Part shown: in pieces, positions 11,659 to 43,290 of the stretch
Layout: every line of letters starts with the position of its first letter
How positions within the stretch are numbered: the stretch's first letter is position 1
Source of the DNA: Haloferula sp.
GTDB taxonomy: Bacteria > Verrucomicrobiota > Verrucomicrobiia > Verrucomicrobiales > Akkermansiaceae
Reading direction: 5' to 3'
DNA: 45,445 nucleotides
Assembly: GCA_007126655.1 (NCBI GenBank)
Contig: SLAV01000181.1
Span: 1 to 45,445 of the forward strand
Made by a program: the position numbers and the translations under genes
The notes under the pieces: generated by a model
The model's input: only the letters and a program-made list of their open reading frames with translations
Databases searched by the model: none
Told to the model about the DNA's origin: nothing

Positions 11659-11721
11659 GCGTCCGTGCCCGACACCCCATCCGGGTTTGACATCCGGCGG
11701 ACCGGGCGGAATGCTCGCCGC

Positions 11722-12114
11722 ATGTACGAGGCGAGCGGCACCATCAAGGTCATCTTCGACGAGCAGGTCTTCCCCAGCGGGTTCAACAAACGCGAATTCG
11801 TCGTCACCACCGAAAACGACCGTTACCCGCAGGACCTCAAGTTCGAGCTGGTGAAGGACAAAACCAAGCTCATTGAGCCGTTCGAGGCCGGACAGAAGGT
11901 CGTCGTGAACTTCGACATCCGCGGCAATGAATACAAGGACCGTTACTACGTGAACCTCTCGGCCTGGAAAATCCAGCCCGCGGATGATTCCAGTCCCTCC
12001 GGCGGCGGTGCCGCCGCGGCCGGGACCGCCGGAGCGGCCGCCACCGGCGGCGAACCGGCAGCCTCCGACATGCGCGACGAGGACGATTTCGACGACGACG
12101 ACGTCCCGTTCTGA
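11722..12114 (+). CDS. DUF3127 protein with SSB-like acidic C-terminal tail
   Basis: This protein is 130 residues from the ATG at 11722, which begins the family's conserved MYE(A/V)xGxIKVIFDxQxFPSGFxKREFVV block; an in-frame GTG at 11665 would add 19 unrelated residues. Residues 1-90 are the DUF3127 domain, probably OB-fold-like, with YPQDLKFE and [13 protein letters not shown] Gly/Ala/Ser linker follows. The last residues, [12 protein letters not shown], closely resemble the acidic tip of single-stranded DNA-binding protein, usually DDDIPF, which recruits repair and replication partners. A DNA-binding role is inferred from this tail and not shown. Confidence 0.85.
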
Positions 12115-12154
12115 CGCCCTCCCCTCCCGGCGATCGCACGAGCGGCCGCCCGAT

Positions 12155-12290
12155 GGAGGCACGGCACTCCTGCCGTGTACCGGAGGCACCACACTCTTGT
12201 GGTGCATGCGAATGGATCGTGAATGAGCAAGCTGCGAAGCATCGATTCATTCTCATCTCATTCTCATGCCGACAGGAGTGTCGGCGCTCC
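12155..12290. repeat. Three 23-bp hairpin repeats with compensatory arm changes
   Basis: Copies lie at 12155-12177 (+), 12182-12204 (+) and 12268-12290 (-). All read GGAG then a 7-base arm, a CTCC/CTCT loop and the complementary arm. The arms are CACGGCA/TGCCGTG, CACCACA/TGTGGTG and GCCGACA/TGTCGGC. Differences in one arm are matched in the other. Confidence 0.85.
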
Positions 12291-12305
12291 GGTACATCAC
12301 AAGAG

Positions 12306-12388
12306 CATCAACCGCCGACGGGCGGACAACGACGGGACGAATTTTTTCCCCGTGAGAACAGGAGCCGGAGGCACCTGCCACTTCTTAC
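12306..12388 (-). repeat. Copy of the dispersed ~92-bp intergenic repeat
   Basis: Read on the minus strand this matches the units at 24201-24280 and 43017-43290: a GGTGCCTCCGGCTCC hairpin, then TTCTCACGGGGAAAAAA, then CGTTGTCCGCCCGTCGGCGG. The adjoining bases 12389-12425 resemble the start of the next tandem unit (ACTTCCCCGTAG plus a CCGGAG/CTCCGG hairpin). Confidence 0.8.
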
Positions 12389-12504
12389 CGGAGCCGGAGG
12401 CTCCGGCTACGGGGAAGTTCGTAAGGAGTGCCGTGCCTCCATTGGGCGGCCGCTCGTGCGAAAATCCGCCATGGCGCACCGCCATGCGGGAGCATCGGCA
12501 TTGA

Positions 12505-14751
<2,247 letters not shown>

Positions 14752-14781
14752 CCGCGGGGACCGCCCGGCGGAGCGGGCTTT

Positions 14782-23589: not shown

Positions 23590-24176
23590 CGCTGCTCGAA
23601 CAACTCGGCACCGCCCTCGGTCTCGCCTCACTCGCGGGGGTGAACCTCTACCTCACCGTCCTCGTCGCCGGCCTCGCCGTGCGTTTCAACTGGATCGAGT
23701 GGGCCGCCGCACACGAATCGCTCGCCGTCCTCGGCGACCCCTGGGTCATCTCGGTCGCCGCGGTTTTCTTCCTCATCGAGTTTTTCGCCGACAAAGTGCC
23801 ATGGCTTGATTCGATTTGGGATCTCGCCCACACCGCGATCCGCCCGGCCGGCGGCATCTACCTCGGCCTCGCCGCGCTCGGCGAACTGGATCCCGCGCTC
23901 ACCGTCATCGCCGTGATGGCCACCGGCGGTGCCGCGCTCTCCACACACGGCACCAAGGCCAGCGTCCGCGCCGCGCTCAACACCTCGCCCGAGCCTGTCA
24001 GCAACTCCGTCGCTAGTGTCACCGAGGACGGCCTCGTCCTTGGCGGGCTCGGCCTCATCGCCGCCGCCCCCGCCGTCGCCTTCTTCATCTTTCTCACAGT
24101 CGTCATCCTCTGCACTGCCTTCACCATCTGGCTCTGGCGCAAAATTTTCCCTAAACGTCGACCCGCCACCCCGTAG
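23586..24176 (+). CDS. DUF4126 integral membrane protein
   Basis: This is a 196-residue protein with about five hydrophobic segments: LGLASLAGVNLYLTVLVAGLA, then VISVAAVFFLIEFFADKVPW, a glycine-rich middle, and a C-terminal segment before a basic tail. The block FFADKVPWLDSIWDLAHTAI and the GAALSTHGTKASVRAALNTS motif are typical of DUF4126. The biochemical role of the family is not known. ATG at 23586 overlaps the preceding TGA. Confidence 0.85.
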   Translation: MTLLEQLGTALGLASLAGVNLYLTVLVAGLAVRFNWIEWAAAHESLAVLGDPWVISVAAVFFLIEFFADKVPWLDSIWDLAHTAIRPAGGIYLGLAALGELDPALTVIAVMATGGAALSTHGTKASVRAALNTSPEPVSNSVASVTEDGLVLGGLGLIAAAPAVAFFIFLTVVILCTAFTIWLWRKIFPKRRPATP

Positions 24177-24200
24177 CCTGAGCCCCCCGCACCGGCAAAA

Positions 24201-24280
24201 GTAGCAGCCTCCGGCTCCTGTTCTCACGGAGAAAAAAGTTCGGCCCACCGTTGTCCGCCCATCGGCGGTGGATGTTCCTG
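24201..24280 (+). repeat. Copy of the dispersed ~92-bp intergenic repeat
   Basis: It matches the minus-strand copy at 12306-12388 and the tandem array at 43017-43290: a GCCTCCGGCTCC hairpin, TTCTCACGGAGAAAAAAG, then CGTTGTCCGCCCATCGGCGG. It lies between DUF4126 and the metal ABC operon, so operon transcription must start in or after it. Confidence 0.8.
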
Positions 24281-24408
24281 TAGTGGATGCCAATGGAACG
24301 CGAATGAAACAGACGCCATGCCGCTCCACCATTCACTGCTCGTTCTCAAGCACACGCCCCCGTTTTGCGGCTTCCGCCGCCGCGACTCCGGCGCTATCAA
24401 TCCCCCGG

Positions 24409-43016: not shown

Positions 43017-43290
43017 CCTCCCGTAGAAGGTGCCTCCGGCTCCTTTCTTTTCGGGGAAAAGTTGGTCCCGCCGTTGTCAGACCATCGGCGGTGCAAGCTC
43101 CTGACTAACTTCCCGTAAAAGGAGTCTCTGACTCCTCCATTCTCGGAAAAAAGTTAGTCCCGCCGTTGTCCGCCCATCGGCGTTGCAAGCTCCTGACTAA
43201 CTTCCCCGTAAAAGGAGTCTCTGACTCCTTCGTTTTCAGGGAAAAGTTTGTGCCGTCGTTGTCCGCCCATCGGAGGTGCGAGCTCCCAAC
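43017..43290 (+). repeat. Three tandem copies of the ~92-bp repeat
   Basis: Units lie at 43017-43108, 43109-43200 and 43201-about 43290. Each has CTTCCCGTA, a hairpin, an A-rich GGGAAAAAG stretch, CCGTTGTCCGCCCATCGGCG and GCAAGCTCCTGACTAA. The hairpin is GGTGCC/GGCTCC in unit 1 but GGAGTC/GACTCC in units 2 and 3. Single copies occur at 12306-12388 and 24201-24280. Confidence 0.9.

Follow-up and report, generated by a model that had tools for sequence, protein, structure and literature searches.

What is the hairpin-rich block of 328 bp that lies between a DUF3127 gene and icd, the gene of monomeric isocitrate dehydrogenase, in the window (the whole stretch of 45,445 nucleotides analysed here, contig C349 of a 4.14-Mb assembly of 390 contigs, 95% complete)? 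We propose, with a probability of about 0.9, that it is a nested cluster of REPs around a REPIN core, presumably moved as a single strand by a RAYT (REP-associated tyrosine transposase). The parts of the block and its neighbours are these:

11665..12114, forward strand: DUF3127 gene (PF11325, 7.5e-24), its stop 19 bp before the block
12134..12461: whole block, 328 bp, inverted ends and GGAG hairpins
12134..12154, forward: outer left flank, inverted partner of 12441-12461 (repeat search)
12155..12178, forward: GGAG REP 1, GGAG-GCACGGCA-CTCC-TGCCGTGT
12182..12290, forward: REPIN of 109 bp, two unlike outward GGAG REPs with a hairpin-forming spacer between them
12182..12205, forward: GGAG REP 2, left end of the REPIN, GGAG-GCACCACA-CTCT-TGTGGTGC
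12267..12290, reverse: GGAG REP 3, right end of the REPIN, GGAG-CGCCGACA-CTCC-TGTCGGCA
12291..12440, reverse: split GGAG REP 4, 5' half GGAGGCACGGCACTCC at 12440-12425, 3' half TGTGATGTACC at about 12303-12291
12300..12424 (boundaries approximate), reverse: structured module, probably inserted, with CTC(C/T) at both sides
12359..12381, reverse: GTGG REP within the module, GTGG-CAGGTGCC-TCC-GGCTCCTG
12388..12410, reverse: GTAG REP within the module, GTAG-CCGGAGCC-TCC-GGCTCCGG
12441..12461, reverse: outer right flank, inverted partner of 12134-12154 (repeat search)
12501..12528, forward: TTGACC-16-CATACT, probable core promoter of icd, beyond the downstream end of the block
12544..14754, forward: icd, monomeric isocitrate dehydrogenase (PF03971, 1243.8 bits)

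The inverted ends, first described as 37 bp with 36 matches, are 38 nt long in our repeat search (12134-12171 and 12424-12461), 97% complementary with 37 matches. The three GGAG-footed hairpins noticed by the sequence-only reading are indeed there, but their loop, said to be kept, is only nearly so (CTCC or CTCT). It had overlooked a further REP, the fourth, which is split and lies at the right end, as well as the GTAG and GTGG REPs at 12359-12410. REP 1 has the same register as the REPs that flank RAYT genes in sister genomes. The arms of REP 4 are imperfect and its loop is occupied by the module; we recognised it by alignment with an empty-loop locus (L039 of G048) and by the matching layout of L002, L007 and L019. 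Flanks resembling 12134..12154 precede other GGAG REP halves in the window's genome, on the foot side, and partial copies of this flank are present on contigs C108 and C216. In a search of the window for known RNA families nothing was found except a tRNA elsewhere in it.

Folded as DNA, the block reaches –124.9 kcal/mol versus a mean of –61.1 for shuffled sequences (z –15.8), and folded as RNA it has a z of –15.1; no shuffle came near in either case. The earlier observation that both arms change jointly holds well beyond the three copies on which it was made. Across 65 distinct hairpins 96.3% of cells are paired, and the differences between arms are compensated: 133 cells are doubly changed versus 46.4 in shuffles, the paired structure being kept while the sequence varies. 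The signal is lost when the partner is shifted by 1–3 columns. It should be noted that our search pattern anchored the foot, the loop and the inner three pairs, which leaves the five outer pairs as the free test. Kinship among the sequences is still contained both in the covariation score (0.487 versus 0.174, reached by 0 of 500 shuffles) and in the permutation result for the outer pairs (87% Watson-Crick versus 42% when permuted, with a maximum of 51% in 1000 permutations).

Neighbouring hairpins are arranged in a regular way, with GGAG outside in 31 of 43 pairs, in tandem in 12 and inside in none. The lengths of these doublets cluster at 55–80 bp, mostly beside RAYT genes, and at 106–110 bp, a class of 12 units from six genomes (the window's and five sister genomes). 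The unit at 12182-12290 has what is expected of a REPIN: its two REPs are inverted and stand at a set distance, and the doublet can fold into a hairpin. As single-stranded DNA it adopts a cloverleaf fold (z –4.3) with GGAG/CTCC at its closure, and its copies in sister genomes (positions 49-157 of the block as query) are bounded at GGAG/CTCC. The stems usually differ between the two REPs of one doublet, and it is these unlike stems that had appeared as arms changing together. A spacer resembling that of the window's REPIN lies at L042, L049 and L055 of G018 between REPs with GTAG-type feet (GGTAGCGCGGCACC); judging from these loci, spacers may be common to different REP classes. At L045, L047, L051 and L053 the left border of the REPIN is TAAGGAGG, Shine-Dalgarno-like and often at a stop codon, and a repeat, TGGCCACAAAAAGCACAA, recurs together with its complement next to the clusters at L006, L009, L195, L206 and L212.

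The pattern GGAGNNNNNRCAYTCYTGY was found in 52 of the 61 genomes of the genus, with as many as 246 matches in one genome, while its reversed control gives 0–1 per genome. The high copy number of a REP is found in the relatives, and the window's genome has only 10 pattern matches. A conserved 5' tetranucleotide stands at the foot of the palindrome. For the 65 distinct hairpins GGAG was part of the search pattern; a foot-free scan gave it as the commonest foot. The GT(A/G)G foot of canonical REPs is confined to the module, and since the foot of the main family is GGAG, we treat it as a GGAG variant and not as a canonical GTAG REP.

Transposases matching these hairpins were found in sister genomes. 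A complete doublet-RAYT-doublet is present at L085 of G031, from the same GTDB genus, with identical GGAG doublets on both sides of a 199-aa gene, one directly after its stop codon and the other before the gene. The protein carries HUH and Y motifs, is above the Pfam cut-off for Y1_Tnp, and matches NCBIfam NF047646 (REP-associated tyrosine transposase) with E 1.8e-18 and 66.8 bits, below the cut-off of 80. Matching relatives of this protein are present in 43 of the 46 genomes of the genus, and the association that defines a REPtron, a RAYT flanked by the same REPs, is seen at L085 and at other sister-genome loci. When GGAG is fixed in the scan, most close RAYT loci are flanked by hairpins, at one side or at both, whose stems vary, whose loop is mostly YTCY and which have an inner ACA/TGT. 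When the foot is left free, 13 of the 22 RAYT loci have perfect hairpins of at least 7 bp on both sides and 15 have them on one side or both, the commonest foot being GGAG or GGAG shifted by one base. Hairpins of this type are missing at L087, L088, L090 and L091, which have 6-bp stems, 6-nt loops and GGAG. Pairing between guide and loop was considered as a general rule and rejected, since no covariation of feet with loops is seen when RAYT clades are compared.

The genome of the window (95% complete, in 390 contigs) yielded no close RAYT of the 199-aa family, and its eight Y1_Tnp genes have no convincing REPs nearby in scans for GGAG and for GTAG/GTGG/GTAA. The cognate RAYT may have been lost or may be unassembled; since strict copies number only 10 and the searches gave no RAYT, the REPs of this genome may also be relics.

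How the block could have arisen can be modelled on the known RAYT/IS200 pathway (PMC6006769, PMC3116915), with the enzyme taken from sister genomes only. The two outward GGAG hairpins of the REPIN core would leave as single-stranded DNA, and the RAYT, a Y1 HUH transposase, would cut and rejoin the REPIN, reading a hairpin plus its 5' tetranucleotide. If recognition by the enzyme depends on stem and foot more than on the sequence of the stem, the arms would be free to drift in compensated steps, which would give the observed covariation. In a plausible order of events, an extra REP would come to lie at each side of the REPIN, and the right-hand one would take the GTAG/GTGG module into its loop.

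This module (about 12300-12424) has many copies in its own genome, mostly partial. At L002, L007 and L019 the two arms of a GGAG REP enclose it, and the arm bases pairing across it (7/8, 7/8 and 8/8 respectively) form three different stems; at L003, at L009 and in the window copy the arms around it appear degraded by eye. The same neighbourhood with an empty REP loop exists at L039 of G048. From this copy we conclude that the module was probably inserted into a REP loop; G048 is from a different family, and one of the two assemblies could be contaminated. Further copies lie outside REPs. Within the window, a tandem array of about three module copies, with a unit of about 92 bp and CTCCTG at the joints, occupies 43023-43277, and a further truncated copy, followed by a decayed REPIN half, is at 24169-24281; tandem arrays also occur at L029. 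One could suppose that CTCC, the complement of GGAG, is the cut and insertion site of the RAYT, which would make REP loops landing sites and let hairpins nest from inside. The borders of the module, CTC(C/T), its position within REP loops and the mostly YTCY loops of the main family agree with such a rule. However, GGAG-REP loops at L108, L114 and L087-L091 are not complementary to the foot and some GTGG-footed REPs keep a TCC loop, so we hold it to be improbable.

A REP cluster might also have acquired a function where it landed. It is possible, if doubtful, that these REPs were co-opted as the 3' transcript end of the DUF3127 gene or as a stabiliser of its mRNA, insulating icd. The block begins just behind the stop codon of this gene, termination of transcription and stabilisation of mRNA are known effects of REPs (PMC6006769), and a search of the region gave no intrinsic terminator. 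On the other hand, the DUF3127 gene adjoins icd in none of 80 icd loci. Such a role is compatible with a REP origin and hence not exclusive of it.

Much less can be said for a 328-bp MITE whose 37-bp ends would be recognised by a DDE transposase that moves it whole, a reading we consider very unlikely. Near-perfect inverted ends do close the block, but no second full-length copy exists in its own genome or in 58 relatives: the own-genome search gave 54 matches, of which only the block itself covers its whole length. The remaining matches are partial, and the pieces (query 162-307, 22-170, 49-157 and 1-38) recur separately. Thus, 49-157 occurs alone in G001 and G025, starting exactly at GGAG and ending exactly at CTCC; 22-170 matches G048, of another family, at 88%; and 162-307 with shorter parts has many matches in the own genome. 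Copies of the inner REPIN and of the module are independent of each other, the ends are found singly on C108 and C216, each end contains half a REP, and no target-site duplication was seen by eye at 12134/12461. The block is a mosaic of REP elements and not a 328-bp MITE. What survives of the earlier proposal is a repeated non-coding element, probably mobile; neither of the outcomes it had named as fatal, an absence of further copies in the genome or arm differences without compensation, was observed.

The suggested connection with icd fares no better. Upstream of icd lie the DUF3127 gene and a sucrose synthase gene, and the closest named relatives of icd come from Akkermansiaceae/Verrucomicrobiaceae MAGs. 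The only sigma-70-like promoter predicted in 12080-12600 is that at 12501-12528, 40 bp after the end of the block, and 43 of 79 relatives have a TTGAC motif no more than 110 nt ahead of the icd start. The position upstream of this gene and the strong RNA fold would suit a structured 5' leader or a regulatory RNA of icd, but such a role is hardly credible, as the predicted promoter falls between block and icd, no GGAG hairpin was found upstream of icd in 79 relatives (up to 500 nt searched), and homologous units adjoin many unrelated genes. The block is thus probably not a control element of icd, and its case advises caution: a large hairpin before a metabolic gene may be the scar of a parasite and not a regulator.

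More striking than the REP block itself are RAYT domains that we noticed in frame within leucyl-tRNA synthetase and other enzymes. In eleven sister-genome loci of the same GTDB genus (L107, L109, L111, L235-L239, L242, L244 and L245) a RAYT domain sits in frame at the same editing-region site of leucyl-tRNA synthetase (LeuRS), in most cases with REP hairpins at its borders. Many other genus genomes, the window's own included (865-aa frame), have an uninterrupted LeuRS. LeuRS frames of about 911-975 aa, with the match split at the site where the RAYT domain lies in the eleven loci, were found at G001:C2, G005:C87, G015:C138, G023:C83, G026:C259, G032:C61 and G066:C30, which suggests short inserts, perhaps REP-only remnants. 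RAYT domains also lie in frame within other long proteins, of housekeeping or restriction: CarB (L243 by Pfam; L246 and L247 alike by appearance), MetH (L248 by Pfam; L251 and L252 alike by appearance), IspG/GcpE (L253 and L254, Pfam), HsdR (L240, Pfam) and a DUF5107/TPR protein (L250, Pfam); the HsdR-like L249 has a tblastn RAYT match and no Pfam Y1_Tnp match. A narrow literature search returned no report of a RAYT within leucyl-tRNA synthetase.

Known best from Proteobacteria, the RAYT/REPIN system is here extended to a lineage of Verrucomicrobiota in which the guide tetranucleotide differs. The GGAG guide can be regarded as a natural change-of-specificity experiment for guide recognition, and the way in which RAYTs read hairpins could be tested on the dozens of compensated stems and their matching transposases. 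The transposases share with TnpA-REP subclasses 2.4/2.7 (Quentin 2018, PMC6006769) a length of about 200 aa and the motifs N-H-hydrophobic-H, WQ and YIR(R/K)NP, and may belong to one of these subclasses; the guide here is GGAG, whereas that survey searched GTAG/GTGG. REP-targeting insertion sequences such as ISPpu9 (PMC8450116) are likewise elements inserted in a REP, but the module described here is about 110–125 bp long and has no coding gene. Its hairpins share GTAG/GTGG feet and the TCC loop with the GTAG REP superfamily (Di Nocera 2013, PMC3733652), in which GTAG-20 of Opitutus terrae is listed with GTGG; in our case they belong to a composite module that occupies a GGAG REP loop.

The block had not been recognised as a described element, while its anatomy is that of REPs and REPINs tied to RAYTs (PMC3116915, PMC3686654, PMC3733652). 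REPINs and RAYT-associated REPs (Bertels and Rainey 2011, PMC3116915; Nunvar 2013, PMC3686654) have the same short palindrome with a 5' tetranucleotide, and likewise outward doublets, compensatory changes and flanking RAYT genes. Doublets are 71 and 110 bp long in P. fluorescens and 106–110 and 55–80 bp here. In contrast to those REPINs, the foot is GGAG and not GTAG/GTGG, the stems within a doublet are usually unlike, and the host is an uncultured bacterium of the Verrucomicrobiota. REP feet are given in the papers we found as GTAG/GTGG (PMC3686654, PMC6006769), as CGTC (PMC3733652) and, for class 3, as CnGA (PMC6006769). GGAG as a REP foot appeared in no paper found by our literature search, which mostly did not reach subscription papers, and we therefore file the block as a new variety of a known repeat. 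The kind of element, a REP, is known; it is by the GGAG foot and the module nested in a REP loop that this variety stands apart.
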